Part shown: positions 21,867-63,411 of the stretch, one piece after another
Position numbering within the stretch: position 1 is the first letter of the stretch
How the letters are laid out: each line of letters opens with the position of its first letter
Assembly: GCF_012910805.1 (NCBI RefSeq)
Contig: NZ_WTVK01000033.1
Location: 1-64,000, forward strand
DNA: 64,000 bases
Origin: Aromatoleum evansii
GTDB lineage: Bacteria; Pseudomonadota; Gammaproteobacteria; Burkholderiales; Rhodocyclaceae
Direction: 5' to 3'
Notes under the pieces: model-generated
Database searches by the model: none
Seen by the model: only the letters and a program-made list of their open reading frames with translations
Told to the model about the DNA's origin: nothing
Position numbers and translations under genes: made by a program

Positions 21867-22291
21867 CGCGACCTCGCCCGCGTCCGTTGAGGAATCCGAA
21901 TCGCCTCGCTCACGCCCCGACAGGCCAGCACCACGCGCAGGCACATCGCCTCGTCGAACTCGCCAATGTGGCAAGACTCGACCGCGATACCCAGCTTCTT
22001 CGCGAGCCACGCATAGGCTTGCGGCCGCGTCATGCGGCCCGAGCGCCACAACGGATCGAATACCGCGTGCGCCCGGTTCTTCGCCCGACGCAGGCCTTCG
22101 TTGGCCAGTCGCCCAAGGGGTTGAGTGCCGTCGTAGCCAAAGCGCGGATTCGGGTCGTGACAGCCGACGTGCGCCTCACACGGGTCGCAGCGCCAAAATC
22201 GTTTGTGGTGCAGGTCCGGACGGTCGGGGTAGATCACCGTCCCGTCGACCAGCTCGGCCGGCTGCTGGCAGTAGTCGCAAATGACGGCCAT
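21863..22291 (-). CDS. DUF3268-like zinc-finger protein
   Basis: This 142-aa protein carries a CDYCQQPAEL and WRCDPCEAHVGCH cysteine set that matches the two CxxC pairs of small zinc-ribbon proteins of the DUF3268 type. The helical tail includes LRRAKNRAHAVFDPLW and a WLAKKLGI segment. It is coupled by a 4-bp overlap to the downstream methyltransferase and lies 6 bp from the upstream 22297-22863 gene, forming a three-gene unit. The role is unknown. Confidence 0.7.
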   Translation of the reverse strand: MAVICDYCQQPAELVDGTVIYPDRPDLHHKRFWRCDPCEAHVGCHDPNPRFGYDGTQPLGRLANEGLRRAKNRAHAVFDPLWRSGRMTRPQAYAWLAKKLGIAVESCHIGEFDEAMCLRVVLACRGVSEAIRIPQRTRARSR

Positions 22292-22296
22292 GGCGC

Positions 22297-22863
22297 TCAG
22301 CCGTAGTAGAAAATGCTCAACTGGCGAGCGGTTGCCGCGAGAATCTCCTCGCGCACGTCGTAGGCGAGCGCAACGAACTCGTTGGCCTTGTCGAGCACCT
22401 TCACGCACGCTTCGCCGCAGCCCGAATCCGTCTCCAGCCGCTGCAGCGTTGCGTCGAGTTCGATCTCGGTGAGATGGGTCAGCGTCTTCACGTAGGCAGC
22501 CAGCGTCCCAGCCAGAGGCACCGGATGCCGTTCCCACAGGCCGTGCGTCGGATCGAGCAACTCGATCCACGCTTCCTTGGCGTTGGCGGGGACCGACAGG
22601 CCGTCCTCGGTCGTGAGCCGAATCTGGTTGCCGGTGTCGAGAGTCTTGACCAGCGCGCGCCCCACCCGCCCGTCGTCGTGGATGGTGACGGTGGTCTCCG
22701 CCTCGACGAAGCCGTAATGCGCGGGCTGTACCTCGAAGCGCCCGCATTCGCTCTCGTACGGGTTGGTGATCGACGTGCCGTCGTGGAAAAAGGAGATCAT
22801 CTCGGGTGCCTCGTAAAAAAGGGGTTTCGTCTCGGTGCGCAGGGCCGCTCGGGCGGTGCGCAT
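22297..22863 (-). CDS. Hypothetical protein of methylase operon
   Basis: This 188-aa protein starts at ATG 22863 (MRTARAALRTETKPLFYEAP); the upstream extension reaches into the divergent promoter region and looks non-native. The middle is beta-rich (HYGFVEAETTVTIHDDGRVG) and the end helical (ACVKVLDKANEFVALAYDVR). It is first in a leftward operon with the zinc-finger protein and methyltransferase. No family is recognised. Confidence 0.55.
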   Translation of the reverse strand: MRTARAALRTETKPLFYEAPEMISFFHDGTSITNPYESECGRFEVQPAHYGFVEAETTVTIHDDGRVGRALVKTLDTGNQIRLTTEDGLSVPANAKEAWIELLDPTHGLWERHPVPLAGTLAAYVKTLTHLTEIELDATLQRLETDSGCGEACVKVLDKANEFVALAYDVREEILAATARQLSIFYYG

Positions 22864-23039
22864 CGAAAGCCATTCTCCAAGGGGGTCGCCCCAATTCAAG
22901 GGGTGAGATGGGGCGCGCGTTTCATGCCAAAAACACCGCGTCCGGTGCGGACATTGGGGTGCAACCCAGCCTATTTCGGGCTCGGCGGCGGATGCTGTGC
23001 TGCTATGCTTGTGCGATTGACGACTTGCACTCATCCACC

Positions 23040-25928
23040 ATGCAACAGGCTCTGACCGCCGCGCAGTTCATCAAAAAGTGGACCGACAGCCCGCTCTCCG
23101 AGCGTGCAGGCTCCCAACCGTTCTTCCTGGATCTGTGCGCCCTGCTGGGCGTGGACACCCCGAACGACCCCGAGTCGTACTGCTTCGAGCGCGGCGCGAC
23201 GCGCACCGGCGCCGGCCACGGCTGGGCCGACGTGTGGAAGCGGGGGCACTTCGGGTGGGAGAACAAAGGCCCCGGCGGCGATCTGGCGGGCGCGCTGCGT
23301 CAGCTCATGACGTACGCGCTCGCGCTCGACAACCCGCCGCTCCTGGTGGTCAGCAATCGCGCCGTGACGATGATCCACACCCACTTCACCGGCACCCCGA
23401 GCGTGACCTACACCATCCGCCTGGAGGACATCGGCACGCCGGAGAACCTCGAGCGTCTGCGCTGGGTGTTCACGGACCCCGAGAGATTCCGACCGGGACG
23501 CACAGTTCTCGACGTCACGGCCGATGCCGCCGGGCGCTTCGCCGATATCGCCAAGTCAATGACCGATCGGGGGCACGACCCGCAGAAGGTTGCGCACTTC
23601 CTGATCCAGTGCCTATTCGCGATGTTCGCCGAGGACATTGGCCTTCTGCCGAAGAAGCTCTTCGAGCGCGTGATTACGAAGCGGCAGAGCGACCCCCTGA
23701 AACTCGCCGTTTCGATGAGGGAGATGTTCGAGTCCATGCGGACCGGGGGAGATTTTCTTCTGGAGGATATCGCTTACTTCAACGGTGGCCTGTTTGAGCA
23801 GATCGATGTCGTCGAGCTCGAACCGAACGAAATCGACGCACTGCTGCAGGCCTGCCGGATGGACTGGAGCGCAATCGAGCCCTCCATCCTCGGCACGATG
23901 TTCGAGCGCGGCCTCGATCCGAAGGTGCGCGCCCCGCTGGGTGCGAACTACACCGACCCAGCCACCATCATGAAGCTGGTGCAGCCGGTCGTCATCGAGC
24001 CCTTGTCGCGCGAGTGGGAGGCTGCCAAGGCGAAGATCGGCCCGCTGGTGGCGAAGTACCACGCCGGCGGCAAAGGTTCGCAGAAGTCCGGTCAGGACGC
24101 ACAGGCGCTGTTTCTCGGGTATCTGGAGCGGCTGAAGAACTTCCGCGTCCTCGATCCGGCGTGCGGTTCGGGCAACTTCCTGTACCTCTCGCTGAGGGCG
24201 CTCAAGGATCTCGAGCATCGTGCGAACCTGGACGCGGAAGCGCTCGGACTGCACCGGCAACTGACCATCGAGACCTGTCCGGACAACGTGTGCGGCATCG
24301 AGATCAACGCATATGCCGCGGAGCTCGCCCGGGTGACGGTCTGGATCGGGGAAATCCAGTGGATGCTCAAGCACGGTTACGACTGCCGGCGAAACCCGAT
24401 CCTCGCGCGTCTCGATCACATCGAGAACCGCGATGCGTTGCTCAACGAGGACGGCAGTGAAGCATCGTGGCCCACGGTCGACGCGATCGTCGGCAATCCG
24501 CCGTTTGTCGGGAACAAAAAGATGCTCGGCGAGCTTGGCGCCGAATATACCGCTCGCCTGCGCGGGCTGTTCGATGGTCGCCTTCCGGGAGGGGTCGATC
24601 TGGTCACGTACTGGTTCGAGCGCTCAAGGGCACAGATCGCAGCGGGCCGCTGCAAAAAGGCTGGCCTTGTCGCAACACAGGCCATCCGCAAGGGTACTAA
24701 CCGGACGGCTCTTGATCGCATTGTCACATCGACGCGGATTTTCGAGGCTTGGAGTGACGAGGAGTGGGTCAATGACGGTGCGGCTGTCCGCGTTTCGCTG
24801 GTCGCCTTTGGCGAGGAGGAGCGCGTACGCCTGGATGGTATCGACGTTGGGAAGATCAACGCCGATCTCACCTCAGCGGACGGAGGCATCGACGTCACCA
24901 CCGCTTCGCCACTTCGAGAGAATGCGGGCGTGGCCTTTCAGGGGCCTGTCAAGGTTGGCTCATTCGACATTCCCGGAGAGATCGCACGAGCTTGGCTTAC
25001 TCACCCGAATCCGAACGGCCGCTCCAACACCGACGTGCTGCGCCCTTGGGCCAACGGGCAAGATGTGAGCAAAAGGCATTCCGACACATGGATCATCGAC
25101 TTCGGGGCCGACATGTCCGAGCAGGACGCGCTACTTTATGAGACACCGATAGCCCACGTGATCGAGCATGTGAAGCCCATGCGCGAAGCCGGAAACCGCG
25201 AGGGGCGTAAACGCTATTGGTGGCGCCATGGGGAGACCGTTCCAGCGTTCCGGCGGGCGACCGCACGTATCACACGGTACTTGGTGACGATACGCGTAGC
25301 CAAGCACCGTTTTTTCGTCTGGACCCCTACCGCCGTTCTACCGGACTCCCGTCTTTACGCAATTTGCCGCGACGACGACATTACGTTCGGCGTGCTTCAC
25401 TCACGAATGCATGAGGTCTGGGCGCTCGCCAACGCTTCCAGACATGGTGACGGTGACGAAGGCGGGAGACCGACATACAACGCGAAAACCTGTTTCGAGG
25501 CTTTCCCTTTCCCTGCCGGCATGACCCCCGCCGATACGGCTACAGGTGCCCCATCGGGCGTCCATGCCGAAGCAATCGCCGCCGCGGCCCGCCGACTCAA
25601 CGAGCTGCGCGAAAATTGGCTGAATCCCGCCGAGTGGGTCGACCGTGTGCCGGAAGTGGTGCCAGGCTACCCCGATCGGATCCTCCCGACGCCGGGCCAT
25701 GAGGCGGAGCTGAAGAAGCGCACGCTCACGAACCTCTACAACCAGCGCCCGGCGTGGCTCGACAAGGCACACGCGGACTTGGATGAAGCGGTAGCCGCCG
25801 CCTACGGCTGGACCGACTACACACCGTCTATGTCCGATGACGAAATCCTGCGTCGCTTACTGGCCCTGAACCTTGAACGGGCGAGTACGAGCGCGTCGAT
25901 CGCTCAAGCAGATCCCGAGGTCGTGTAG
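23040..25928 (+). CDS. MmeI-like single-chain restriction-modification enzyme
   Basis: This 962-aa protein combines nuclease and methylase. The N-terminal region has the PD-(D/E)XK-like pattern with Asp64 and E74-N-K76 (WENKGPG), as in MmeI-type type IIL enzymes. A helical spacer follows (MFAEDIGLLPKKLF, SILGTMFERGLDP). The gamma-class methylase carries DPACGSGNF at 372-380 and NPPF at 486-489 (N6-adenine type). A C-terminal target-recognition domain contains DSRLYAICRDDDITFGVLHS. The ATG at 23040 gives the usual family length. Such enzymes methylate one strand of the site and cut outside it, and need no separate R gene. The gene is divergent from the methylase operon. It may serve as host defence or plasmid addiction. 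Confidence 0.85.
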   Translation: MQQALTAAQFIKKWTDSPLSERAGSQPFFLDLCALLGVDTPNDPESYCFERGATRTGAGHGWADVWKRGHFGWENKGPGGDLAGALRQLMTYALALDNPPLLVVSNRAVTMIHTHFTGTPSVTYTIRLEDIGTPENLERLRWVFTDPERFRPGRTVLDVTADAAGRFADIAKSMTDRGHDPQKVAHFLIQCLFAMFAEDIGLLPKKLFERVITKRQSDPLKLAVSMREMFESMRTGGDFLLEDIAYFNGGLFEQIDVVELEPNEIDALLQACRMDWSAIEPSILGTMFERGLDPKVRAPLGANYTDPATIMKLVQPVVIEPLSREWEAAKAKIGPLVAKYHAGGKGSQKSGQDAQALFLGYLERLKNFRVLDPACGSGNFLYLSLRALKDLEHRANLDAEALGLHRQLTIETCPDNVCGIEINAYAAELARVTVWIGEIQWMLKHGYDCRRNPILARLDHIENRDALLNEDGSEASWPTVDAIVGNPPFVGNKKMLGELGAEYTARLRGLFDGRLPGGVDLVTYWFERSRAQIAAGRCKKAGLVATQAIRKGTNRTALDRIVTSTRIFEAWSDEEWVNDGAAVRVSLVAFGEEERVRLDGIDVGKINADLTSADGGIDVTTASPLRENAGVAFQGPVKVGSFDIPGEIARAWLTHPNPNGRSNTDVLRPWANGQDVSKRHSDTWIIDFGADMSEQDALLYETPIAHVIEHVKPMREAGNREGRKRYWWRHGETVPAFRRATARITRYLVTIRVAKHRFFVWTPTAVLPDSRLYAICRDDDITFGVLHSRMHEVWALANASRHGDGDEGGRPTYNAKTCFEAFPFPAGMTPADTATGAPSGVHAEAIAAAARRLNELRENWLNPAEWVDRVPEVVPGYPDRILPTPGHEAELKKRTLTNLYNQRPAWLDKAHADLDEAVAAAYGWTDYTPSMSDDEILRRLLALNLERASTSASIAQADPEVV

Positions 25929-50314: not shown

Positions 50315-50599
50315 ATGATCCGCGAACTCCTAAAATCGCTGCGGCAAGAGGGAACGACGAACGCCGAAGCATCCCCCGCTGCAGCGGAGCGTCGATTGGC
50401 CACGCAGCAGGAAGAGAAACGGGCGCGCGTCGAGGCCGTCGAAAGAACGCTGCGTCTTTATGATCGTCGTGAGGTTACGGTGCGCGAACTCAGCAATGCC
50501 GCGCAGGTGAACGAGAGGCATGTGCGCCGAATCCTCATTCACCTTACGGCGGACGGCAAAGTTGCATTTGACGGCCACCGGGTGCGACTCATTTCTTGA
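50315..50599 (+). CDS. Small winged-helix-like regulator
   Basis: This 94-aa protein starts at ATG 50315 (MIRELLKSLRQEGTTNAEAS). After a charged N-terminus comes a helix-turn-helix/winged-helix pattern: LYDRRE, VTVRELSNAAQVNERHVRRI, LIHLTADGKVAFDGHRVRL. The start lies 8 bp after the bactofilin stop, so the two genes form one unit. It is likely a DNA-binding regulator of that operon. Its end overlaps the convergent recombinase gene. Confidence 0.6.
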   Translation: MIRELLKSLRQEGTTNAEASPAAAERRLATQQEEKRARVEAVERTLRLYDRREVTVRELSNAAQVNERHVRRILIHLTADGKVAFDGHRVRLIS

Positions 50600-51794
50600 G
50601 TGACGCGATCATCGAGTCAAAGACCGGCGTGACCTGATCGTGCAATTCGTCGCTCTCGGTGTTCAGATAACCGAGCGTCGTGTCCGCGGATGAGTGCCGT
50701 CCAAACCCTTTGGTCATCCGCACGTTACCCGAGGTATCGGCAATCTTGCTGATTGATGTGTGACGCAGCCAGTGGGTCGAGGCTTGCTCCAACTGGTTCT
50801 TGGCATTGTCAGCGCCGTGCTTGCCTGCGAGCTTCGCGGCATCGCCCATCACGCGCTTGACGATGCGATATAGCATATTGTCGGAGATGCCCTGCTTCGG
50901 ATTGCCGATTTGCGCGATGACGGGATGGTTGTCGCGCATGTGAGGCAATTCGGGAAGCCCGCGGCACGTGTTGTACGTCTTGAGTGCCTGAATGACGGCA
51001 TCTCCGATCTGCAACGTTCCTACGTCCCCGCCCTTGGCGATCACGTGAAGACGCCAGCGGTTGTTCTCGCACACGAGGTTATTGACCGTTGCATTGGCCA
51101 GCTCTGATCGGCGAGCCCCAGTCGTGAGCAAAATTTGTATCACCAGTTCGGCGCGTGCCGCGGTTTCATTCTCCTCTGCCGTAGCCCGCGGCAACATTGC
51201 AAGGTGCTGGAAAATGAAGGAGATCGCTTCGAGGGTCAGGCCGTGCCGGGAGACCGTCGCAGGGCGCACCTTGTCCCCTTTTTCTGCCCGGGCCTTGCGC
51301 CGCTTCTGTCGGACCAGCCCCATGGGGTTAGCGTTCAAATAACCGGCTTGTACCAGCCAATCAAGAAAGGCAGCGACTACACGCAGCGCCTGATGGCACG
51401 AGTCATGACTCAAGGGTGCGCGGAAGGGGCGCCATTCCTCATGCCCGTATGGAGCCCGTGTATCGCCGATCAGATGATCGGGGGGGCTGCGCATCCAAGT
51501 CTCAAAATCGCGAAGATCGTCGCGCATCAGGTGCGCAAATCGGCGGTGCGCGAAGTCTCGCGTCCAGATCAGGAATCGACGCAGCTCTTTGGCGTAGAGA
51601 CGTCGAGTATTGGGAGACTCCCGATACTCGGCGAGGTAAGCGTCGATCGCCTCTTCGTCGTTGGTGACCCGAATTGCGAGGCTGACGCGACGGTGCGTCG
51701 TATCAAGCTCCAGTCGGTTACGAGTAGCCTCCTCCTGGTCGACTGCGTCGTAGACTACGGTAGGCAGTTGGTCTGTTCCCTTAAACGCAGGCAT
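50589..51794 (-). CDS. Active-type tyrosine recombinase related to TnsF
   Basis: This 401-aa tyrosine recombinase has all catalytic positions: Arg in TTGARRSELA, Lys in LHVIAKGGDVG, HWLRH (His-x-x-Arg), His in GRHSSADTT and Tyr in LGYLNT. Its core-binding region has a signature also seen in the TnsF-like protein at 60444-61667: ETWMRSPP, then W-R-P-F...APLS, then FLDWLVQAGYLNANP. In the other protein these read YFLLRPHPP, W-L-P-F...GPL and LTDWLREVGY. Known relatives of TnsF with an active domain move non-Tn7 elements (Tsy). This may be the recombinase of such an element or a plasmid resolvase. It is convergent with the winged-helix gene. Confidence 0.85.
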   Translation of the reverse strand: MPAFKGTDQLPTVVYDAVDQEEATRNRLELDTTHRRVSLAIRVTNDEEAIDAYLAEYRESPNTRRLYAKELRRFLIWTRDFAHRRFAHLMRDDLRDFETWMRSPPDHLIGDTRAPYGHEEWRPFRAPLSHDSCHQALRVVAAFLDWLVQAGYLNANPMGLVRQKRRKARAEKGDKVRPATVSRHGLTLEAISFIFQHLAMLPRATAEENETAARAELVIQILLTTGARRSELANATVNNLVCENNRWRLHVIAKGGDVGTLQIGDAVIQALKTYNTCRGLPELPHMRDNHPVIAQIGNPKQGISDNMLYRIVKRVMGDAAKLAGKHGADNAKNQLEQASTHWLRHTSISKIADTSGNVRMTKGFGRHSSADTTLGYLNTESDELHDQVTPVFDSMIASLKK

Positions 51795-53303: not shown

Positions 53304-54296
53304 TGCGCGCAGCCCGGCGCCATTCCGGGACTACCGTATTTTGTTGACACGCGCGCGGCGGAAGCCCTGGCGCGCTTCTGGGCGGAACTGCGAGAGAAGA
53401 GCCGCGTCCGCATCGAACACCCTGACCTTCCCGATACGCTGAAAGTGGCGGCAGGGGAACTTGTGGGGCGGCTATGGAGCGAGGCCCAAGCGGCAGCACA
53501 AGAGAATCTGAATGTCTTCCGGGAGGAGGCCACCGCTCGCGTCACCGCTGCCGACGTCGCAAAGCAGCGCGCTGAACAGGACCGGCAGGCTGCTAACCAA
53601 GAACTCGAGCATCTGCACGAGGCACTCAATGACTCCTCGGAGCGCATCCTTTCGCTGGAACGCGTTTTGGCGGCGGAGCGCGCGGAAAAGGAGGGGCTTG
53701 CCGGACAGCTGTCGACAGCAAGGAGACAGCATCAGGCACTCGAAGCGGAACTATCGGCTGCGCGCAAGGACTTCGCGTCCGAGCTCGAAAAGCAGCGCGA
53801 TGCCTTGCGGCGGGCGGAGGATCGCCATGAAGCGGCCGAGAAGCGTGCGTTGCTGGAAATCGATCGCGAACGCACGACCACTGCGAAAGCGCAGAAGGAA
53901 CTGGTGCAAATCCGGCAATCAACTGCGGATCTTGTTCAACGGCAGCGGGACGAACTCGGTGCTCTTCAACAGGAGCTAGGAGACGTCCGCCAAGCCCTGG
54001 GAGCCGCAGAAGGCAGCCTCATCAAGATGAGGGAGGACGCGGAACAGCACATCGCGCAGATGAACGTGATGCGCGAGCAACTTTCTCAACGGACGACCGA
54101 GGCTGCGCTCCTGCAGCGCGAGTTGGAACTCCGTGACGAGAAGATCAAGACTATGGTGCAGGAATTGCAGCGGGCCCGAGAATCCGCCGATCCAGGCTAT
54201 AGCGCAGCAAAACTCAAGCCGCGAAAGCGGAAAGCTTTCCTACCGGTCACGACGGAGAACCCCGGATCGGCAACGCCCCCCGCGAAAGCGCGCTAG
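53304..54296 (+). pseudogene. kfrA: kfrA-like gene lacking its N-terminal DNA-binding domain
   Basis: The frame from 53304 (after a TGA) codes for a KfrA-type protein. It has the conserved segment RFWAELREKSRVRIEHPDLP then GELVGRLWSEAQ, followed by a long Glu/Gln/Ala-rich coiled coil (about 53500-54200) and a basic tail. KfrA proteins normally carry an N-terminal helix-turn-helix of about 60-90 residues; here only unrelated sequence precedes VDTRAAEAL. The first usable start in frame is GTG 53445, inside the conserved region, so a shortened coiled-coil protein could still be made. KfrA binds its own promoter and supports stable plasmid maintenance. I infer truncation by insertion or rearrangement. 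Confidence 0.65.
53338..53351 (-). repeat. Inverted copy of Tn-end-like motif
   Basis: ATTTTGTTGACACG is the exact reverse complement of 14 bp in the repeat at 54373-54386 (CGTGTCAACAAAAT). It lies precisely where the kfrA reading frame loses its N-terminal domain. It reads TGTCAACA leftwards, as an element end whose interior is to the left. Confidence 0.45.
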
Positions 54297-54341: not shown

Positions 54342-54436
54342 TGTCAACAAGTTGTGGTGCTGCGATGTGGCTCGTGTCAACAAAATGTAGTATCAAAAGT
54401 CAAGAGATGTGGTCCAGCGAGTCAGCAACTTTTGAG
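54342..54436 (+). repeat. Putative transposon left end with TnsB-type repeats
   Basis: Related repeats start at 54342 (TGTCAACAAGTTGTGG) and 54375 (TGTCAACAAAATGTAG), with a weaker copy at 54421 (GTCAGCAACTTTTGAG). Spacing is 33 and about 46 bp. The first begins with TGT, as do Tn7-like ends. They lie after the kfrA stop and about 780 bp before tnsA, where the left end with several TnsB sites would be expected. Confidence 0.55.
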
Positions 54437-55216
54437 CGGGTGGACACAAAAGCGCGCATCAGACTCGAACGGAAAACTTTCATCTGCGGGGTCTTCTCCA
54501 TAAGTTTGCGGAAATTTGCGTCAAAAATTTGAGACGGAATAACCCGAATTTTCGAATAAGGACAGATTTTTACTTACTATCCTGATGCCGCATCACAATG
54601 GACCCAATGTCCCGAAAGCGGATGCAACGTGCCGAACCGAAGAGTGGTCCTGAGACACTCCACGTGTCACTGATGCGGTGTCGGTGCAAAGAAATGCCGT
54701 CGATCCCAGGTGAACAGGGGATTCTGAATTATCGAGCGCAAGCATCGCAGTGCAGGTGAAGTGAGACCGCGCGACCGCATGGTCGGAGTACCGTTACCGC
54801 TTCACGAACTGCGCCGAATGCGACCGCGCGCTCGTCGCTAGCAGCAGCCGCACGGCGCGGTTCAAGAACGGTTTATCGCCTTCGGACCTGCCTGACGATC
54901 AACCTTGTTCCGCTGACACGGCTGGCCGTTCCGTGTCGCCGAGGGGCTCATGAACTCGCTAGTGCAACTCAATGGGCCTTAATCTTCAGGTGCCCAGCCA
55001 CACCCACGTGTCGCGCCGATTGGCGCGACTTCAGGTAACGATTGCCGATCCCCGAGAAAGCGCCAGGCACACACGCGGTGGACGACCCGACGGAGCTAAA
55101 TGTCGTCTGCGAGACGAAGTGGAAAGTGCAACAGCGCGGAGTGGGAGATGCACTTGGCTCAAGATTTTTCTCGCGTCGGATCAAGACCAAAAGCCCGACA
55201 AAAAAAGTCAACTATA
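54437..55216. other. Transposon left leader, no gene
   Basis: About 780 bp without a convincing gene between the end repeats and tnsA. It contains AT-rich stretches (about 54500-54600) and scattered GTC/GTG-rich sequence. It probably serves as subterminal and promoter sequence for the tns operon. I see no CRISPR array or other structured RNA feature in it. Confidence 0.5.
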
Positions 55217-55990
55217 ATGAAACCGGTGGTGGATCTCGGAGGCACCCATATGGCGCCGGGGCCGCGGCTTGGTACACGGTTGAGAGGAAGGTTGGCGCCT
55301 GCCTACTCGGCCCGTGGACGACAGCGCAGTACATTATTCTCGGTTTATAGCCCACGCACTGATCGCGACTGGATTCTTCGGGGCGAGGTGGCGTGGATGC
55401 ATTTTCTGCTTGTGGAGAGCGATCCGCGCGTCAAGGCAGTCGATTACGCCCCGTCCACACATGTCGTCCGCGCGGGCGATGTGGAATTTGCCACCGATTT
55501 CGCGGCCCTTGTAACGTATCACGACGGCAAGTCCGAATATCGCCAATTAGTGACGACGTCCGCTCTGCGGAACCTCGACAGGCAATCCGTGCGCGAGTGG
55601 GAAACGAAGGTTGCGATTGCTGATCGAGAGGGGATTCATTATGTCCAGTACACCGAAGCGGAAATTCTTGCAAATCCGCTGCGAATAGTGAACTGGCAAC
55701 GCGTGATTGCATGGTTGAGTGCGGCTCGCTGTTATCCCCTTCGTCCTCTTCAGGTTGAGATCAGCGCATTGCTGCATGCTCGCGATTGCGCGTCGGTGAA
55801 AGATATTCAATCGCTTGGCGCCGGTGCTCTGGGTTCTTGCTATGTCGCGGCTGCGTTTAAGGGTGTCCAGGATGGACTTTACTGGGCTGATCTTGACGAC
55901 AGACCATTGAACAAGAACACGTCCGTCAGGATTCTACGGAGTACGGACCATGAAGAGGGAACGCTACACGAGGCGAAACCTTCCACCTGA
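55217..55990 (+). CDS. tnsA: TnsA-like transposase endonuclease subunit
   Basis: This 257-aa protein is placed as TnsA, which cuts the 5' ends of Tn7-like transposons. The fold pattern is seen: Glu57 in RGEVAWMHFLLVE, DPRVKAVDYAPS, then TDFAALV with Asp94, and YRQLVTT with Gln110. In characterised TnsA the last motif is Q-x-K; here the Lys position (112) is Val, so cleavage may be impaired or the alignment shifted. The C-terminal third is a winged-helix-like domain (EISALLHARDCASVKDIQSL). The start ATG 55217 begins MKPVVDLGGTHMAPG; a longer frame upstream seems non-native. It overlaps tnsB by 41 bp. Confidence 0.72.
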   Translation: MKPVVDLGGTHMAPGPRLGTRLRGRLAPAYSARGRQRSTLFSVYSPRTDRDWILRGEVAWMHFLLVESDPRVKAVDYAPSTHVVRAGDVEFATDFAALVTYHDGKSEYRQLVTTSALRNLDRQSVREWETKVAIADREGIHYVQYTEAEILANPLRIVNWQRVIAWLSAARCYPLRPLQVEISALLHARDCASVKDIQSLGAGALGSCYVAAAFKGVQDGLYWADLDDRPLNKNTSVRILRSTDHEEGTLHEAKPST

Positions 55991-57920
55991 GTTTGCCGAT
56001 ACGAGTCGATGGCGGCGAGTCGATGTAGAGGCGCTACCAGAAGAGCAACAAACGCGGTTCTGTCGCCTGCAGTTGGCAATTCAGACCTATTTACAGAGCG
56101 GAAGCCTGAAGACGGCAAGCGCCCTGAGTCACGTCCCCAAGAGTTCAATCCTCGATCAACTCAATCGTTGTGTGTCGATTGCTGCAGACGGTCAATTGTG
56201 GGGATGGGCGGGACTTCTTCGGAGCGTTCCGGTCAAGGCATACGAACGCCGGATAGGCGTGCCGCGAGGGGCCCCGGGAGCAGCGAGGGGTTTTGCGGGC
56301 GCATTTTCGAAGTTCCTTGAGGAACACCAGGCGATCCGTGACGAACTTGACGCGATAATTCTCGGAAATGCGCGGCGAGGCAAGATTCGTGAGGCAGGCA
56401 TTTCAATTAAATCCGTCGCAAAGACGTTTAGAGAACTATGTGTTACCCAAGGCATTCACGAGGACGAGTATCCGCTGAATTCCAAATCGTGCGGAAGAAA
56501 ATCGATTGAACGATATATGAAAAATCTCGTCGAAGAGGAGCTAATTGCGGGCACCCGTGCCCGTTATGGTGACGAAGCGGCGCGCCGATTGTCGATTGGA
56601 ACGGGGATGTCTCGTGCGCCGTTGAACGTCGCACCCTATGACGCGGGCGGCATGGATGCCCATAAAATTGACTGCATCGGCTGTGTAGTAATTCCCGGGC
56701 CTGCGGGTCATCAGTCAGTTGCGATTGACCGTCTTTGGCTCGTCGTTCACGTGGAAGAGGTGTCAAAAGCTATTATTGGATATTCTGTTGCTATAAGAAA
56801 AGAGCCCTCTTCGGCTACGATTGAACAGACTCTGATTTGCACCGGGGAGCAGTGGCGCCCGAGAGCGTTGAGCATTCCAGGGCTTCGCTATGCCGAAGGG
56901 AGCGGTCTGCCTTCAGGGGTTATCCCGGAGTTGATGGGATGTTTTCCCGCAGTCATCAAACTTGACAACGCAGCACCGCATTTCGCTGTTCGCATTGCGG
57001 AAAATGCTAGACGACGTACTGGGTGCGTGTTGGCTTGGGGGGGTATCGGCCGTTGGGAGCACAACAAGGTCGTTGAACGACTCTTCAGGACCTTGGAATC
57101 ATATGGATTTCACCGACTTCCGTCGACCACCGGATCAAACCCCAACGATCCATTGAAGGCCAACGCGATCGAGGAGGCGATCGAGCACGCTATTACCTGG
57201 GAGGCGCTATTGGATCTGACCGATGTAATTGTCGCCGAGTACAACGCAACGAAAAGCCGCGGATTGGGCGGTCGGTCGCCGCTGGAGGTCCTGCGCGACC
57301 ACCTCCATGCATTGGAGCCTTCGTTCCTTCCTCGCTGTCTTCCGCCGCCGACAAGTAGTCAGCCAGAATTGGGGATTGTGGTGGAAACACGAACGGTCCG
57401 TGGAAACCAGAGCCAAGGCCGCAGGCCGTACGTCGAGTTGGACCGTTGTCACTATACCAGTCCGCTTCTTGCCCGCTCTTTTGGTTTGATCGGTACGCAG
57501 ATTCGAGTCCATGTTCGCGAATCGGACATGCGGATCGTGGTTGCTTTCTTCGCGTCGGGCGGGGAATTGGGAACGCTGCGCGCTCAAGGGGCTTGGGGGA
57601 ATATTCCGCATACCCGCGAAATGCGCAAGCAGATCAACGCGCTTTGCGACGCGGGTGAACTGTGTTGGGGGCCAGGCGACGATCCTGTCCGGAAGCTGCT
57701 GCAGTACCTCGCCGACAAAGCGTATCGGGATGCGCAGCGCCGACCGCGGAAGATCTCCCGCACGGCGACGCAACTCGCTGAGGCGGCACATTCTTCCGGT
57801 CTTGCCGTGCCAGCCGCCTCGGCGCCGGGCCTGACTCCCGCGACGGCCCAGGAGCCCCTTCCCCGTCCACGGCCGATGCCGACAACGCTTAAGAAGCCAA
57901 CATGGAAGTCGGTGACGTGA
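55950..57920 (+). CDS. tnsB: TnsB-like DDE transposase
   Basis: This 656-aa Mu/TniA-type transposase is the catalytic core that joins the 3' ends to the target. The DDE triad is intact: Asp241 in AHKIDCIG, Asp339 in VIKLDNAAPH and Glu376 in NKVVERLFRTLE, all inside an RNase H-like domain. The N-terminal 200 residues contain helix-turn-helix-like segments for end binding (SGSLKTASALSHVPKSSILD). The C-terminal Mu-type beta-barrel (RRPYVELDRCHYTSPLLARS) and a Pro/Thr tail complete the layout. ATG 55950 lies inside the end of tnsA. The family length of about 600-700 aa is matched. Confidence 0.92.
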   Translation: MKRERYTRRNLPPEFADTSRWRRVDVEALPEEQQTRFCRLQLAIQTYLQSGSLKTASALSHVPKSSILDQLNRCVSIAADGQLWGWAGLLRSVPVKAYERRIGVPRGAPGAARGFAGAFSKFLEEHQAIRDELDAIILGNARRGKIREAGISIKSVAKTFRELCVTQGIHEDEYPLNSKSCGRKSIERYMKNLVEEELIAGTRARYGDEAARRLSIGTGMSRAPLNVAPYDAGGMDAHKIDCIGCVVIPGPAGHQSVAIDRLWLVVHVEEVSKAIIGYSVAIRKEPSSATIEQTLICTGEQWRPRALSIPGLRYAEGSGLPSGVIPELMGCFPAVIKLDNAAPHFAVRIAENARRRTGCVLAWGGIGRWEHNKVVERLFRTLESYGFHRLPSTTGSNPNDPLKANAIEEAIEHAITWEALLDLTDVIVAEYNATKSRGLGGRSPLEVLRDHLHALEPSFLPRCLPPPTSSQPELGIVVETRTVRGNQSQGRRPYVELDRCHYTSPLLARSFGLIGTQIRVHVRESDMRIVVAFFASGGELGTLRAQGAWGNIPHTREMRKQINALCDAGELCWGPGDDPVRKLLQYLADKAYRDAQRRPRKISRTATQLAEAAHSSGLAVPAASAPGLTPATAQEPLPRPRPMPTTLKKPTWKSVT

Positions 57921-57930
57921 GGGTAAGGTA

Positions 57931-58974
57931 ATGACCCTGCAAACATTTGAAAATTCAGTGCGCGACGGGCCCGCTGAAAGCAGGGGGGCAACGTCGTCGA
58001 TTCTCATGCCTGGTGCCGAGCGCGAGGCGGCCTTTCAAGCGCATCCGGTGGTTGGTGATTTGGCAAAGGTACCGACTCCCGCCGTGAGAGGCGCATTCGA
58101 CGTCGTTTGTCGCGCGGTTGTCCACCGCGAACCTGGCGTCTGTTTTACCGCCAATTCCAGGTTCGGAAAGACCTATGGAATGGAGGTGGTGCGAAGAACC
58201 TTGCCACAGACCTTTCCAGCCCTAGGGATTATTTCAATCGTGGCGAAGGACCATCCTCGCTCGTCGGAGGCGACATTTTTTTCCGATTTGTTACTCGACT
58301 GTGGACATCACGCAGCGGATGTCGGTACCGGGACAAGCAGGCGAAATCGCCTCATTAGCCTGTGGCTGGCTACGGCGCAAGCCTCCTCCGGCGATCGCCT
58401 CTTACTATCTATTGATGAAGCGCAGAACTGGCACGAGGAAGACTATACGTATTTACGTGATATTTCCAACTACCTTGCCGAGCGTGGTGTGAGGCTAATT
58501 ACCGTCTTGATTGGCCATCCATTGCTGCTCGCACTTCGTGGGACCCTCTTGCTTGCCAAGCGGACGGATCTGATCGGCCGATTCATGCTTCATCCATATC
58601 CGTTTAGGGGGCTGACTTCGCTCGATGACGCTTCCGCGGTATTGGCGGCCTATGATAATCCCGAGATTTCCGAGTTTCCTGAGGGCAGTGGAATCAGCTA
58701 CAGCGAGTTCTTCCGTCCGGAAGCGTTTCGGTCAGGATGGCGCCTCGCCAGAGAGGCGGAGGCCTGTTGGGCTGCGTTCGCTTCTGCCGCGGGGAAGCAT
58801 GCCGGCAGGTATGAAGTGGGTATGCACTGGATGGCTACCGCGATCCGAGAGGTTCTCTACCAATACTGGGAAGAGGACCGGGGCGCCCCCGCCACCGACG
58901 GCGGCAGGTGGGACGTAGCAGTGAGTGAGTCCGGCTTCGAATGGAGTCTTGGGGTCACGCAAGATCCGTCATGA
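57931..58974 (+). CDS. tnsC: TnsC/TniB-like AAA+ ATPase
   Basis: This 347-aa AAA+ regulator has Walker A at residues 74-81 (ANSRFGKT, with Ala in the first Gly position) and Walker B LLLSIDEAQNW with Asp162-Glu163. A sensor-like LIGHPLL follows at about 201. A C-terminal helical region (FRSGWRLAREAEACWAAFAS) contacts partners in homologues. TnsC filaments on target DNA bridge the target selector (TniQ/TnsF) and the transposase. It lies 10 bp after tnsB. The Ala in Walker A is unusual but the essential Gly-Lys-Thr is kept. Confidence 0.9.
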   Translation: MTLQTFENSVRDGPAESRGATSSILMPGAEREAAFQAHPVVGDLAKVPTPAVRGAFDVVCRAVVHREPGVCFTANSRFGKTYGMEVVRRTLPQTFPALGIISIVAKDHPRSSEATFFSDLLLDCGHHAADVGTGTSRRNRLISLWLATAQASSGDRLLLSIDEAQNWHEEDYTYLRDISNYLAERGVRLITVLIGHPLLLALRGTLLLAKRTDLIGRFMLHPYPFRGLTSLDDASAVLAAYDNPEISEFPEGSGISYSEFFRPEAFRSGWRLAREAEACWAAFASAAGKHAGRYEVGMHWMATAIREVLYQYWEEDRGAPATDGGRWDVAVSESGFEWSLGVTQDPS

Positions 58975-58984
58975 GAGGCAGGGT

Positions 58985-60520
58985 ATGACTCACGCACCAG
59001 GTACCATCCCGCAGCGCGGAATGGCTCAAGACTTCGGGCAGACCGCTGTTACGCCCGTGCTGGTCGGAGGGTTCATCTGGCGAGACGTGTGGGCGAGCCC
59101 ATTTGAGGGCCCGCTGACACGGTTGTGGAAGTTGCTCGTACTGAACGCGTCTGGCCCGGCGTATGTTTCACGAATCCTGTTTGGACGGAATCTGGTAGGC
59201 AGTGCTGCTGCAAAGACCCATGGCCGCAGCTTACTGCTGACACAGTGGATGGCGCCGGAGGGAAAACTGACCAACGCCTTGGCGGATTCGATCTATCGGG
59301 CTGGCTTGGGAACGTTTTCGAGCCAGTGGGCGAATGCCATTGCATCGGATCACCAGATACGATTCTGCAATAGCTGCCTTTCAGCCGGCTATCAATCGAT
59401 TTTTTGTCAGATCGACGCATTGCTGCAATGCCCAGTCCATGGTGATCCGATTATCGACTATTGTATGCGTTGCGGAGCGCCCACGCCGCGGTACGCGCTA
59501 ACGGCTGAAACCATGGCAATGCCGTTTTGTTGTCCGCGATGCGGTGGCGGCTTGAGTCTGCCGACGGCCGCGACCGCGTCCCTTTCGTGTTATGAGAGAT
59601 CACGCCAAGAATTTGGAGATAAGGAAGTCAGTCAATATGGGATTATCGCTGACTGGCTGCGCAGGTTGGACGAGACCGAGATCTATTGGCCATCGGCGGC
59701 GGAGTGGCGGCCCGGATCCGATGCCGAACCGCCCGACAAGGCAAGGAGAGCGGCCGTCTTTTCCGTTCTGTCGAATATTGTGCCTTTCAAGTGTGGTGCC
59801 GGCGATACGGCAATCCCTCAGCTTCGGGTCGCAACTGTGCGCCATGACAAGAGCTCAGTAACCGTGAGCGCGCCGCGGAGCAGAAAGCGGGAGAACGCGG
59901 AGCGGATAGCCGTCTATTCAGCCATCTGTAAATCGGTCAGACGCGTGCTCCAGAAATACCATCGGCGCTGCCTCAAACAAGCGGAGGCGATTCTCCATGT
60001 CGAATGGGGGAACGACATTCTGTGGCCATCGAGTTCCGTATGTCCGTTTGCATTCGGATTCCAACTATGGAGACATCATTTTGAGGAGCGGCGCCAGTAT
60101 GGAAAGACAGGGCGTACAGGCAAGTTACGCTTGCGCAAGAGGGTGTTGGCGTGGCCGGGTGACCGGGGGATTGACTCCGCGATGTGGGGAGAATTTGTCC
60201 TAATGTCGCTCCTCGCAAACCTTCAAGTGGCGATCGAGTGGTGTGAGCGGGCGTCGAGCCTCCCTGCGGATTACGGTCGACCGCTCACGCCCGACGTTCT
60301 TGAAATGATTCAAGACTTTCGTGCCGAGTTAAGTCCTCAATTCAGGGCGTGGTCGCCACGCGTAACGTACTTCGAATTCTCTCGGCATGGGGAGGACGGA
60401 TTATGGTGGGCCGGGATCGCCGGCCCTCAGGTGAGGGTTGCTGGTGATCGCAGTGCCAGCCCTTTGTGCATTGGCAACGAATACGGTGAGACACGTGAAC
60501 GGGCGCATCGCACCGCTTGA
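58985..60520 (+). CDS. tniQ: TniQ-family target-site protein
   Basis: This 511-aa protein begins at ATG 58985 (MTHAPGTIPQRGMAQDFGQT), 10 bp after tnsC, behind a GAGAGGCAGG site. A TniQ domain has two zinc-binding clusters: CNSC at about residue 128 and a following CPVHG ... YCMRCG; a further CCPRCGG lies near 182. The C-terminal 300 residues are helical with basic patches. TniQ/TnsD proteins connect TnsC to the target recogniser. The overlap with tnsF implies the two are made together, as in TnsF-guided elements. Confidence 0.88.
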   Translation: MTHAPGTIPQRGMAQDFGQTAVTPVLVGGFIWRDVWASPFEGPLTRLWKLLVLNASGPAYVSRILFGRNLVGSAAAKTHGRSLLLTQWMAPEGKLTNALADSIYRAGLGTFSSQWANAIASDHQIRFCNSCLSAGYQSIFCQIDALLQCPVHGDPIIDYCMRCGAPTPRYALTAETMAMPFCCPRCGGGLSLPTAATASLSCYERSRQEFGDKEVSQYGIIADWLRRLDETEIYWPSAAEWRPGSDAEPPDKARRAAVFSVLSNIVPFKCGAGDTAIPQLRVATVRHDKSSVTVSAPRSRKRENAERIAVYSAICKSVRRVLQKYHRRCLKQAEAILHVEWGNDILWPSSSVCPFAFGFQLWRHHFEERRQYGKTGRTGKLRLRKRVLAWPGDRGIDSAMWGEFVLMSLLANLQVAIEWCERASSLPADYGRPLTPDVLEMIQDFRAELSPQFRAWSPRVTYFEFSRHGEDGLWWAGIAGPQVRVAGDRSASPLCIGNEYGETRERAHRTA

Positions 60521-61667
60521 GCGCCTTGTGGTTCCAGAGCTGCTCGACGGACATGACGGAAAATTCCGATTGCCGCGCAAGATGTGTAGGATCGCCGCCG
60601 ACAGTGATCTGGGCGCGGTCATGCTTTGGCTCGCGCGATACGAGGACCGTCCTTCGACTTATCGCTGTTATCGGCGCGAAGTTGAGCGTTTGCTGAATTG
60701 GGCATTGGTCGAAAGGAAGCTCGCAATGTCATCTCTAACCGAGGAGGATTTTGCTGCATATGAATACTTTCTTTTGCGTCCGCATCCGCCGGAGCGATGG
60801 ATCACGACGTCGAAGCGTGAGCGTAGCGACGCTGCGTGGCTCCCATTTGCGGGCCCCTTGTGCGCGCGATCACGGCGCATAGCAATCAGCGTGTTGAGTC
60901 AACTGACAGACTGGCTGCGAGAGGTTGGTTACTGCAATATCGGACAGTCCCTCGCGCGCCATCGCTTGCTGACTCACCAGTCGGCCAGCACACTGGCCCT
61001 GGAATGGGATCGTGATCCTTCCGGGAAGGTGCTCGCATTTTCCGATTGGCGCGTGTTGCGGCGTAGCCTTTATGCGAGTCCATGCGATGAGAAACAGCTT
61101 CGTCGGCGTTTGGCGGTCGAACTGCTCTACTTTGCATCCCTGAGCATCAGGGAGGCCGTGCATGTGAAGGCTGACGATTTTGTCTTGGAAGATGGGTTCG
61201 TGCTTCTTCGGGTGCCATCGCGGGGACGTGAATTCTTCCCAATCTACGTGGTCCCGCCGCTCAAACAGACCATCGAAGCGTTGTTTTCCGTTCGCGCGGA
61301 AGAAATCGGGGACCTCTCGAGTCCAACATGGCGGGGTGCTGCCACGGCCTATTGTTCAATCTTGCACTCCGAGAACGTCGTCGGCTATGACGTTAAAGTC
61401 GCATTGCACGACGCAGCCGACTGGGCCCGCCGACAAGGCGACCACGGCGCCGCGGTACGGCTGTCACGTTCAACTCCGCACTGCCTGCGACATGCATTCG
61501 AGACCCATGCGGATGAACTTGGCGTTTCAGGATGGGCAACGCGTCTTATTGGGACGGGACAGCTTAGCGATTGGTGGGCGAAGCAGTATATGAGTCCGCG
61601 GTCCCGGCTCGCCCCAGTGGATATCGAACGTGGCTTTGCCGCCTTGGCGCGGTGCTGGAGCGAGTAG
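60444..61667 (+). CDS. tnsF: TnsF-like protein: inactivated tyrosine recombinase domain
   Basis: This 407-aa protein is the proposed target selector. The fold of a tyrosine recombinase is kept: core-binding helices, then SLSIREAVHV, PSRGREFFPIYVV, PHCLRHAF and LSDWWAKQYMS. The catalytic set is not: the first Arg (GLR in active enzymes) is Ser, the hairpin Lys is Arg, and the His before Tyr is replaced by Thr or Gly. His-x-x-Arg and the Tyr remain. This fits TnsF of Tn6022-like transposons, known to hold an inactivated recombinase domain and direct insertion to comM. GTG 60444 is chosen because GAGGG precedes it; it overlaps tniQ by 77 bp. The target for this copy is not shown. Confidence 0.8.
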   Translation: MIAVPALCALATNTVRHVNGRIAPLERLVVPELLDGHDGKFRLPRKMCRIAADSDLGAVMLWLARYEDRPSTYRCYRREVERLLNWALVERKLAMSSLTEEDFAAYEYFLLRPHPPERWITTSKRERSDAAWLPFAGPLCARSRRIAISVLSQLTDWLREVGYCNIGQSLARHRLLTHQSASTLALEWDRDPSGKVLAFSDWRVLRRSLYASPCDEKQLRRRLAVELLYFASLSIREAVHVKADDFVLEDGFVLLRVPSRGREFFPIYVVPPLKQTIEALFSVRAEEIGDLSSPTWRGAATAYCSILHSENVVGYDVKVALHDAADWARRQGDHGAAVRLSRSTPHCLRHAFETHADELGVSGWATRLIGTGQLSDWWAKQYMSPRSRLAPVDIERGFAALARCWSE

Positions 61668-61814
61668 GGGCACGCAAGACGTCGGTCGAGTCGTTTGCGC
61701 AATAATGTCAAGTCTCCGGGTGTCCACACGCCGTAGTCGAACGATGTTCGCAGCGCCCAGCCATTGAACGATAATGATCGACTGCGGCGGGCGACGGTCC
61801 CGCGAGGGCGATTC

Positions 61815-62273
61815 ATGCACATGACAATGTTTCTCGGTGAAACGGCGGCCTGTACCGCGTCGGCGGGATCCACGTCCATCTTCGTGATTTCAAACCAGGC
61901 GTCCGATGCGACCGCGGCTGCGCCGATGCGGCCCGGTTGGCGCGAGGTTCGCGACGTCCTGCAGGAACGGGAAGCCGATCCGGCGCGTCGCCAGCAACTG
62001 GCCAACGCACGCAAGCGCTTGGCGCACGTGTTGTCGGAGCGCGGCAGCGTGACCTTTCTGCGGCTGGAGATGGGCTTGTCGAGGCGAGCGCTGGCCGCAT
62101 TGAGTTCGATTCCTGAAGCCGAACTGTCGCGCCTCGAGGGCGGGGCCGAGACGGATCCGCGGCTGTCGGTGTGTTGCAGGCTTGCGCAGGCTTTGGACCG
62201 ATCGCTCGCGGAGATCGCGGCGGCGATTGAGGTCAGTGGCCGCAACAGTCGCGACTTGATGCGTACCTGGTAG
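61815..62273 (+). CDS. Xre-like DNA-binding protein
   Basis: This 152-aa protein starts at ATG 61815 (MHMTMFLGETAACTASAGST). The core (LANARKRLAHVLSERGSVTF ... LRLEMGLSRRALAALSSIPE) is helical and has a helix-turn-helix pattern with an acidic tail resembling Xre/Cro regulators (SRLEGGAETDPRLSVCCRLA). It may regulate genes near the transposon right side, or be cargo. A long opposite-strand frame (61385-62245) is Arg/Pro-rich and rejected. Confidence 0.6.
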   Translation: MHMTMFLGETAACTASAGSTSIFVISNQASDATAAAPMRPGWREVRDVLQEREADPARRQQLANARKRLAHVLSERGSVTFLRLEMGLSRRALAALSSIPEAELSRLEGGAETDPRLSVCCRLAQALDRSLAEIAAAIEVSGRNSRDLMRTW

Positions 62274-62745
62274 GTGGGAGCCCGCGACGAACGCCAAGCC
62301 GCAGCGCGCGGACGTGCCGCTGGAGAGGCTCACACGGCTCGCACGCGAGGCGACACCAAAGGCGGCGCGTGATGCCGTCGCAGCGGGGCGCGCAGTGGCC
62401 GGATGGAAGGGCGGTCGCATGGAGGGGTTCGGTGCTGGGGGGTATCCGTTGTGCGCCGTGCGGCCCGATCCGGGTGCGCCCGCCGAAGGTTAAGGGCGCT
62501 CGGCGCGGCTATTGTATGGTTCGTTGTGCCACACGCGCCGTTTGCGACGCGCAAGGCTTGCTTGGGCGTGCCTGGGAGATCCGGTCATGTAGTGAAACTG
62601 GCTTGAAACCAATACGTTACGATAACTTCAGGGCAAGAATGCGGCGCGCGCTGCTGCAGAGGCCTGCACCGCGGGCACAACGAACCAGACAATAGGTCGT
62701 AACGGAGCGAGTCCGGAGCGCCACGCCGCGATCGTCGGTCGCACA
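62274..62745. other. Gap with inverted repeat pair, no gene
   Basis: No convincing coding frame in about 470 bp. It holds the 20-bp inverted repeat described at 62511-62693. The remaining sequence is GC-rich without protein-like frames. It lies downstream (in the direction of the antitoxin gene) where a RES-type toxin would normally follow, and no such gene is present. Confidence 0.5.
62511..62693. repeat. Inverted repeat pair, 183 bp apart outer ends
   Basis: ATTGTATGGTTCGTTGTGCC at 62511-62530 pairs with GGCACAACGAACCAGACAAT at 62674-62693: 19 of 20 bases match in inverted orientation around a 143-bp centre. The outer CT/AG also match. Such a short-ended 183-bp unit could be a miniature inverted-repeat element or a recombination/regulatory site. 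No coding frame lies in it. Confidence 0.6.
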
Positions 62746-63231
62746 CTAGGCGTAGGCACCGGACTGCATCTGCGCCAACAGCTGCTCGAGCACCCTGAAT
62801 CCCTCGAGCGTGTCGGTGAAGCCGGCAGGACGTCGCCCGCCCAAGGCCGGACAGGGACTGGCGAGCCAGTCCCCGACCCAATGTGGCGCATCAAAGGGCG
62901 TGTGCTGACTGGTGGTCCTCACCATGTCGTCCGCGATCTCGATCAGTCGCAGGAAGGCAAGGACGCGCTCGCTCTGTTCGGTCGTGAGCCGCTTGCCCTT
63001 CAGCGGCGCGGCGACGGGTGAGTGGGCGGCCAGTTGTAGCAGTTCGATCAATTCGGCCATCGAGCGACCGACGGCCGTCGCGATCTCGACGAGCGCGACA
63101 GACTCGATTCCGGCACGCAAGACGTTGATCCTGTCCATGGGATCGAGACGAATCAGCGCCCGCAGGTCAAGCACGGGGCGCTTCTGACTTCCCGCTTTGT
63201 GTCGCGGCCGGATCGCGGACATCGGGTGCAT
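62746..63231 (-). CDS. Xre/MbcA/ParS-type antitoxin
   Basis: This 161-aa protein (start ATG 63231; 63222 is also possible) ends in a DUF2384 toxin-binding region: WLASPCPALGGRRPAGFTDT followed by EGFRVLEQLLAQMQSGAYA, the hallmark of RES-Xre and ParST antitoxins. The N-terminal part contains helical Xre-like segments (LIRLDPMDRINVLRAGIESV, EIATAVGRSMAELIELLQLA). The partner toxin with a RES domain would be expected immediately downstream on the minus strand, but that stretch is non-coding, so this looks like an orphan antitoxin. Confidence 0.8.
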   Translation of the reverse strand: MHPMSAIRPRHKAGSQKRPVLDLRALIRLDPMDRINVLRAGIESVALVEIATAVGRSMAELIELLQLAAHSPVAAPLKGKRLTTEQSERVLAFLRLIEIADDMVRTTSQHTPFDAPHWVGDWLASPCPALGGRRPAGFTDTLEGFRVLEQLLAQMQSGAYA

Positions 63232-63411
63232 GGCGGACTTGGGCTGAAAGGAGCAGTCTAACCGAATCGCGCTGCCGCCGATCCCGGGGCAGTGCGCTGC
63301 GGGCGAGCAAACCCACCGGGCGCTCGTGGGGCAGATCGTTGCAGGCCCCGCTTCAGGCATGGGACTGCCGACGGTGGCAAAGGCACCCCGATGGGGATCC
63401 GAGAAAGCGAG

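Follow-up and report, generated by a model that had tools for sequence, protein, structure and literature searches.

A divergent Tn7-like tns operon of Aromatoleum evansii that may have recruited an inactivated tyrosine recombinase as target selector

Introduction

The question raised by this locus is what guides a transposon whose tns operon ends in a tyrosine recombinase that looks unable to recombine. In Tn7-like elements, TniQ bridges a DNA-bound selector to TnsC (PMC10293859, PMC11406308). We analyzed bases 1-64,000, hereafter the window, of contig C257 (64,612 bases, not closed) in the draft genome of A. evansii (G000, 330 contigs). Five genes at 55217-61667 form a tns operon, and its last gene, here called Y5, is read as encoding a target selector that was recruited into this rare, divergent Tn7-like transposon on a plasmid-like contig and that would bind a site of the Xer/resolvase type. 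We hold this reading as a whole tentatively, and it may well prove wrong. It is supported by the gene overlaps in the operon and by the presence in two genomes of an intact Y5 after tniQ, the copies being about 36% identical. What we show is the operon, the family of Y5 and its lost residues, the 5-bp duplication and dif neighborhood of the Y5-bearing G002 element, and a spacing of 34-37 bases from dif in five relatives without Y5. The DNA binding of Y5, its contact with TniQ, its choice of the target and the movement of the window element by this route are what we infer.

Results

The tns operon and its relatives

The five open genes lie on the same strand, with neighbors overlapping or at most 10 bases apart. 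Identities refer to the corresponding genes of G009 and G002, two sister genomes of the same genus.

55217-55990, plus strand: tnsA-like gene (44.5% to G009, 40% to G002; start chosen by us)
55950-57920, plus strand: tnsB, DDE transposase (55% to G009, 53% to G002)
57931-58974, plus strand: tnsC, AAA ATPase (Pfam AAA_22, 2.6e-9; 50% to G009, 48% to G002)
58985-60520, plus strand: tniQ, 511 aa with CxxC motifs (40% to G009, 37% to G002; start chosen by us)
60495-61667, plus strand: Y5, apparently inactivated tyrosine-recombinase-like protein of 390 aa (weak XerC/XerD matches; 35-36% to the G002 Y5; start chosen by us)

The overlapping pairs are tnsA/tnsB and tniQ/Y5. All five proteins are very divergent: TnsC was the only one to pass a Pfam cut-off, and the PADLOC matches of TnsB and TniQ were weak (E 0.04-0.06 for TniQ). 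Within TnsB, we take D236, D339 and E376 to be the DDE positions. The joint presence of tnsB, tnsC and tniQ homologs places the element among the Tn7-like transposons, a placement that rests on relatives and motifs, with weak family-model support for TnsB and TniQ, and the nuclease signature of TnsA is absent from the window. The order tnsA-tnsB-tnsC-tniQ was kept in G009 and G002 (40-55% identity for tnsA, tnsB and tnsC, 37-40% for tniQ), and the only Y5 ortholog found was that of G002. Given this recurrence, the run of five genes is not due to chance, and the order that a preliminary description of this DNA had proposed, tnsA-tnsB-tnsC-tniQ followed by a fifth gene, was borne out, and the tnsABC-tniQ part looks complete.

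The PD...ExK signature was absent from the TnsA proteins of the window, G009, G002, G314 and G400 in an alignment in which four Tn6022-type TnsA kept it. This absence hints that elements of the window type transpose replicatively. TnsA is dispensable in some Tn7-like groups (PMC8649781).

A TnsC search of 61 genomes, including G000, returned 10 matches at E <= 1e-3; besides G000, only G009 and G002 exceeded 300 bits, and G024 reached 103 bits. TnsB was found at E <= 1e-30 in 16 of 395 genomes of the family and 9 of 399 of the order, and at 1e-40 in 4 of 369 of the class, each count including G000. The phylogenetic analysis (27 rows per tree) joined the window, G009 and G002 at 92/86 for TnsB and 99/98 for TnsC, with G400 and G314 as the nearest outgroups and G111 and G656 on long branches. 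No close relatives were found among 84,980 named genomes and viral contigs by pattern scans, which may omit records very near the window genome.

Y5 falls within a recombinase family and looks inactive

The matches of Y5 to the XerC/XerD models were weak and far below the cut-offs. When compared with six recombinases that keep their catalytic residues, Y5 reached an hhalign probability of 99.9% at 33% identity. In an alignment with relatives, the catalytic Arg I is replaced by Ser in the window Y5 and by Thr in the G002 Y5, the Lys position does not hold Lys, and at the second His position the window Y5 retains His and the G002 copy has Arg. The last catalytic His is lost and the Tyr is kept in both copies; the window Y5 retains the Tyr and HxxR. 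The positions are presumed to be catalytic from the general pattern of the tyrosine recombinase family. Judged by these residues, Y5 looks catalytically inactive. In a tree of 12 recombinases, the two Y5 proteins group together (100/99) and have long branches.

Y5 is distinct from TnsF

The preliminary description took the fifth gene for tnsF and the element for a Tn6022 relative lying away from comM. Six genomes were picked from those with two or three comM matches; the comM pieces of G125 lay side by side, and G226 was left out. In four of the six (G187, G092, G108 and G099), an insertion of 23-61 kb splits comM near model position 280-284, and each of the four carries at a comM edge a run that we read as tnsA-tnsB-tnsC-tniQ-tnsF, the tns and tnsF identities being assigned by order, size and mutual similarity with no family library applied. 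The four TnsF recovered from these elements come from the same bacterial family as G000 and have 471 to 526 aa. Y5 did not group with them: the hhalign probability was 1.7% against the four-TnsF set versus the 99.9% given above, the BLASTP E value against one TnsF was 0.5, and Y5 has 0 CxxC motifs versus 12 in the G187 TnsF, the only copy counted. The hhalign profiles were shallow (2, 4 and 6 sequences), and a very remote kinship between TnsF and Y5 is possible. In both the TnsB and the TnsC tree, the four Tn6022-type rows were set apart at 100/100. The comM gene is full length in G002 and in G000, where it lies on contig C221, apart from the window contig.

Thus, the location away from comM and the tyrosine-recombinase-like class of the fifth protein were upheld, whereas its identity as TnsF and the Tn6022-like nature of the element were given up; the preliminary description had itself named a fifth gene outside TnsF as a refutation of its proposal, and this is what was found. 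We give very little credence to Y5 being a strongly diverged TnsF ortholog in a relative of Tn6022: its operon position and general protein class are those of TnsF (PMC10293859), but the profile comparison, shallow as it is, the BLASTP result, the lack of CxxC motifs, the separation in both trees and the intact comM all speak against it. Residue inspection shows an inactive tyrosine recombinase domain in Y5 as in TnsF, a shared property that does not prove kinship, and Y5 is apparently like TnsF in kind and separate in origin. The account of Tn6022 by Faure et al. 2023 (PMC10293859) describes the same layout, a tnsA-tnsB-tnsC-tniQ operon followed by a protein derived from a tyrosine recombinase that has lost catalysis, but Y5 has no zinc-finger motifs and no TnsF profile match. 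The window tns proteins belong to another clade than those of Tn6022, TnsA lacks the catalytic signature and comM is untouched. Tsy, as described there (PMC10293859), has no Tn7 components and an active TnsF-like recombinase, whereas the window has tns genes and a Y5 with lost catalytic residues.

Relatives with one end 34-37 bases from dif

The TnsB searches led to 27 genomes, and dif was sought in all of them except G357, G409, G934, G960 and G1144, that is, in 22. TnsB and a dif candidate with at most 1 mismatch shared a contig in G002, G009, G408, G111, G490, G378, G656 and, for a second TnsB copy, G548, at a distance of 11-110 kb in all eight cases. They were on different contigs, and thus uninformative, in 12 genomes (G000, G226, G400, G314, G024, G071, G404, G510, G693, G699, G738 and G762), and no dif site of at most 1 mismatch was found by these patterns in G228 and G267. 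In G228, a site with 2 mismatches turned up in the gap that separates kfrA from its recombinase, and this genome was therefore left out of the count.

Element ends were sought as a 5-bp duplication with inverted ends by comparing 3 kb around dif with 3-5 kb upstream of tnsB, and 150 random 3-kb stretches from other genomes served as the control. Among the pairs found were those of G490 (duplication ACAAG, 20/22 end bases matching) and G111 (GCTGA, 18/22), whose scores were reached by 0 of the 150 random stretches, and G378 (GCAGG, 17/22), whose score was reached by 3. The end lies 34 bases from the dif 20-mer in G490, 36 in G111, 36 in G378 and 37 in G408; a search limited to the surroundings of dif favors a match near dif, not one particular spacing. 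The element of G267 was located independently of dif, by means of the G378 right-end sequence, and its end (duplication TGAAC) lies 36 bases from a degenerate dif; the tns genes of G267 and G378 are nearly identical, and the two are not independent lineages. In these five relatives, the dif-spaced end is the one away from tnsB. The arm of dif facing the end is XerD first in four of the five and XerC first in G111. The end search was also without result for G400, G314 and G1144. Flank comparison with congeners of G408, G111 and G378 (8 loci) gave matches only at or around dif in 7 of the 8 and no empty site.

Some further observations were made on these genomes. G548 carries the second TnsB of the clade at C33:3255-4973 and a dif-like site at C33:77361, 72 kb apart on the same contig. 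In G738, a dif-like site with 2 mismatches lies about 0.7 kb upstream of TnsB (positions C39:212785 and C39:213520), and the perfect dif of this genome is found on a different contig. In G490, the dif-side Tn7-like element of 14 kb (C1:2335472-2349661) carries a nucleotidyltransferase-like gene beside a SLATT-like gene, a pair reminiscent of defense cargo of the CBASS type.

The G002 element and the dif-parD-map region

In G000, G001 and G016, a dif-like site is followed, after about 65-100 bases, by a parD-like gene and map. The distance from dif to map is about 116 kb in G002 and about 111 kb in G009, with the tns genes on the map side. The G002 element spans 1856671-1961811 (105 kb); its outer junctions, CATAT followed by AGCACTCGGACACAAATTCC and the partner, show the 5-bp duplication CATAT with 14 of 22 end bases matching, and its insertion interrupts the promoter region seen in G016 and G001. 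On the dif side, the element ends 74 bases from a hybrid dif half site that another insertion, of 10.8 kb, left behind. The opposite end faces parD, and Y5 stops about 340 bases short of it. Given that one end lies 29 bases from the start of parD, the parD-map gene pair itself may have been the target in G002.

The 10.8-kb insertion of G002 (C1:1845739-1856598), which lies between a full dif and a half dif and begins with phage-like genes as read by eye, looks like an element integrating by host XerCD. G003 carries an insertion of about 11 kb at dif (C62:144427-155822), with the half-site copy adjoining map. Within the genus, the dif-parD-map spot appears to be a hotspot.

Recombinases paired with kfrA

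On an Azonexus plasmid, a tyrosine recombinase adjoins kfrA. Full-length relatives of this recombinase (67-79%) occur in G002, G009 and G408, close to dif or to the dif-side end; in G378 the gene is interrupted, and in G267 its first 45 residues are in view. The recombinase-kfrA pair is also present in G228, and in G656 the recombinase comes after tniQ. In G002, a recombinase of the family of Y5 with the catalytic residues kept lies elsewhere in the element that carries Y5. A dif-like inverted sequence recurs, by eye, in five recombinase-kfrA gaps (G228, G408, G002, G009 and Azonexus) and is probably the recombinase's own site.

The ends of the window element and the kfrA side

Three features lie on the tnsA side of the operon.

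53358-54296, plus strand: kfrA fragment (tblastn with Azonexus KfrA; 72% to the KfrA of G009, 62% to that of G002)
54342-54434, plus strand: stretch with two TGTCAACAA repeats, an uncertain feature, possibly what remains of the right end of an older related element, or else the end of an unrelated insertion sequence (IS)
54435-54456, plus strand: possible left end, AGCGGGTGGACACAAAAGCGCG, with 2 mismatches to the motif derived from the G002 and G111 ends

That motif has 10 matches in the window on both strands at no more than 2 mismatches, and the one at 54435 is the only one just upstream of tnsA and in the right direction. It is preceded by TTTTG, the would-be target duplication, and G009 has a similar end-like site at 5108399, in the equivalent place; an AGC...GGACrC-like sequence is common to the ends of G002, G009 and G111. 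A stricter end motif has its single window match at 54435, but was shaped with that match in view and is no independent test. We regard 54435 as a possible left end; paired ends with a 5-bp duplication were seen in G002, and the window gives a possible left end only.

The preliminary description had the element start at 54342, a start that we regard as doubtful. The TGTCAACAA repeats, at 53336-53349 (inverted), 54342-54355 and 54375-54388, lie on either side of the kfrA fragment as inverted copies, and similarity to intact KfrA stops at the inner one; they were dropped as element ends, as they match no relative's end while the ends of the relatives share the sequence above. The claim that the element sits beside kfrA held insofar as kfrA adjoins the tnsA side, although this kfrA is a fragment without the first 57 codons of the Azonexus gene (similarity begins at residue 58). 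Rather than being a targeted plasmid kfrA, it may belong to the right side of an earlier, related element behind which a second element inserted. No clear right end was found in the 138 bases that separate kfrA from the possible left end. We also considered a circular form, in which kfrA would meet tnsA through a fusion of both sides of an island like that of G009, but tandem insertion behind an older element fits equally.

The replicon and neighboring genes

Other features of the window are as follows.

2634-3968, plus strand: Rep3 replication initiator (Pfam Rep3_N, Rep3_C), giving a plasmid-like replicon
50589-51794, minus strand: separate tyrosine recombinase with catalytic residues kept (Pfam Phage_integrase, 7e-12; alignment)
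61764-62273, plus strand: HTH regulator (Pfam HTH_3; 55% to the gene behind tniQ in G009)
62746-63360, minus strand: Xre/ParS-type antitoxin-like gene (Pfam; 69% to G009)

The contig also encodes a ParM-like protein, and together with the Rep3 initiator this agrees with the plasmid location given in the preliminary description, the contig being plasmid-like and not closed. No near-DNA relatives of window 40000-64000 were found among plasmids. Defense-type genes are carried by the replicon: at 4164-8421, a DUF3584 protein and MksE make up a condensin-like set of the MksBEF/Wadjet type on this plasmid-like contig, and at 20640-25928 an N6/N4 methylase with an Mrr_N domain lies near an MmeI-type restriction-modification protein. 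In the G009 locus, no match to Y5 was found, and relatives of the HTH and Xre genes come after tniQ. A sequence of about 22 bases (CTATTGTRTGGT...GTGCC) is repeated around the Xre gene, in both inverted and direct orientation, in the window (62509-62530, 62674-62695 and from 63826 onward) and in the G009 element (near 5115.9 kb).

Discussion

We propose that the tns operon recruited Y5, a catalytically inactivated tyrosine recombinase, from a resolvase family that several relatives carry with catalytic residues intact. Y5 would most likely bind a site of the Xer/resolvase type, either chromosomal dif or a dif-like plasmid site, and would hand this site to TniQ and TnsC, the element then inserting nearby. 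The wider group would sense Xer-type complexes at dif via TniQ, and the Y5 lineage would bring its own dead Xer-like protein for this step, which would make Y5 a second, independent invention of the TnsF role. It is possible, though we have more doubt than confidence here, that large Tn7-like elements (14-114 kb) form a group homing to dif at a fixed distance, and that one lineage turned a resolvase of its own kind into a dead Xer-like selector within the tns operon, finding dif-like sites on plasmids as well as chromosomes.

Known systems resemble parts of this proposal. The Tn5053 family of res site hunters, as described in PMC8649781 and PMC11406308, is likewise Tn7-like and lands beside recombinase sites, but its targets are Tn3-type resolution sites on plasmids, whereas here the site is dif and there is an extra dead tyrosine recombinase. 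The IS1202 family of dif site hunters (ISAjo2; PMC10132070) shares a TnsB-like transposase, a 5-bp duplication and insertion near dif/pdif, but is a 1.5-kb IS without tnsC and tniQ that inserts 5 bp from the XerC site, compared with 34-37 bases, on the XerD side in four of five, here. Tn7-like elements with a tyrosine resolvase, tnsR (Benler et al. 2021, PMC8649781), similarly combine a lost TnsA, apparently inactive in our case, with a tyrosine resolvase in the element, but Y5 is inactivated, lies inside the tns operon and in G002 is additional to a resolvase elsewhere.

Several results weigh against Y5 as the selector of a dif-type site. No match to Y5 was found in the 20-kb tns loci of G490, G111, G378, G267 and G408, so Y5 is not needed for the dif association of these five relatives, and G009, the sister of G002, also sits in a dif-map island without a Y5 match. 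In G002, the end near Y5 faces parD-map, away from dif. The score of the G408 end pair (TGCAC, 16/22) was reached by 45 of the 150 random stretches and is weak alone, no end pair by dif was found in G656 and G228, and the end search found no element end in G009, only the similar site at 5108399. A single-sequence AlphaFold model of Y5, made without an alignment, had a pLDDT of 35 and was not used. For the window element, the search for a right end with TTTTG, carried on to the end of the contig, was negative. The proposals of the preliminary description to define both ends through insertion-free relatives and to invoke a different target site were answered in part, with a possible left end and with the indirect support of relatives that sit by dif.

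Among the alternatives, TniQ alone might sense host XerC/XerD or another resolvase on its site, leaving Y5 as an accessory or regulator, for instance in immunity. The 34-37 base spacing in five relatives without Y5 fits this explanation, as do the precedents of Tn5053 relatives, which target resolvase sites (PMC8649781, PMC11406308), and of TnsB-like IS1202-family elements, which sit by dif (PMC10132070). The Y5 gene, however, overlaps tniQ and has been retained in two genomes (about 36% identity), and we consider this explanation unlikely, though to be taken seriously. It seems distinctly unlikely to us that Y5 is a resolvase (TnsR) in decay or put to another use, without any part in targeting. 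Its place within the recombinase family of these elements (hhalign 99.9%) would suit such an origin, and Tn7-like elements without TnsA often carry tyrosine resolvases (PMC8649781), TnsA looking inactive here; yet the Y5 frame is intact, its operon place is kept in two genomes, and G002 still has a family recombinase with catalytic residues kept elsewhere in the element. It is very unlikely that Y5 has remained active as a recombinase, despite unusual catalytic residues, and resolves cointegrates: cointegrates would be expected from a TnsA without its catalytic signature, and the window copy keeps the Tyr and HxxR, but Arg I and the last His are lost in both copies and the second His in G002.

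If Y5 does act as a selector, tyrosine recombinases became transposon target selectors at least twice, and the passage from hunting a recombinase-occupied site to bringing along a dead recombinase as the guide can be put to the test. Among the matches listed, no report that places Tn7-like transposons at dif was recognized in the open-licence literature. Fixed-distance insertion at dif, if true, would give Tn7-like elements a further landing site that is chromosomal, single-copy and near-universal, and would help to account for the large islands seen close to dif.

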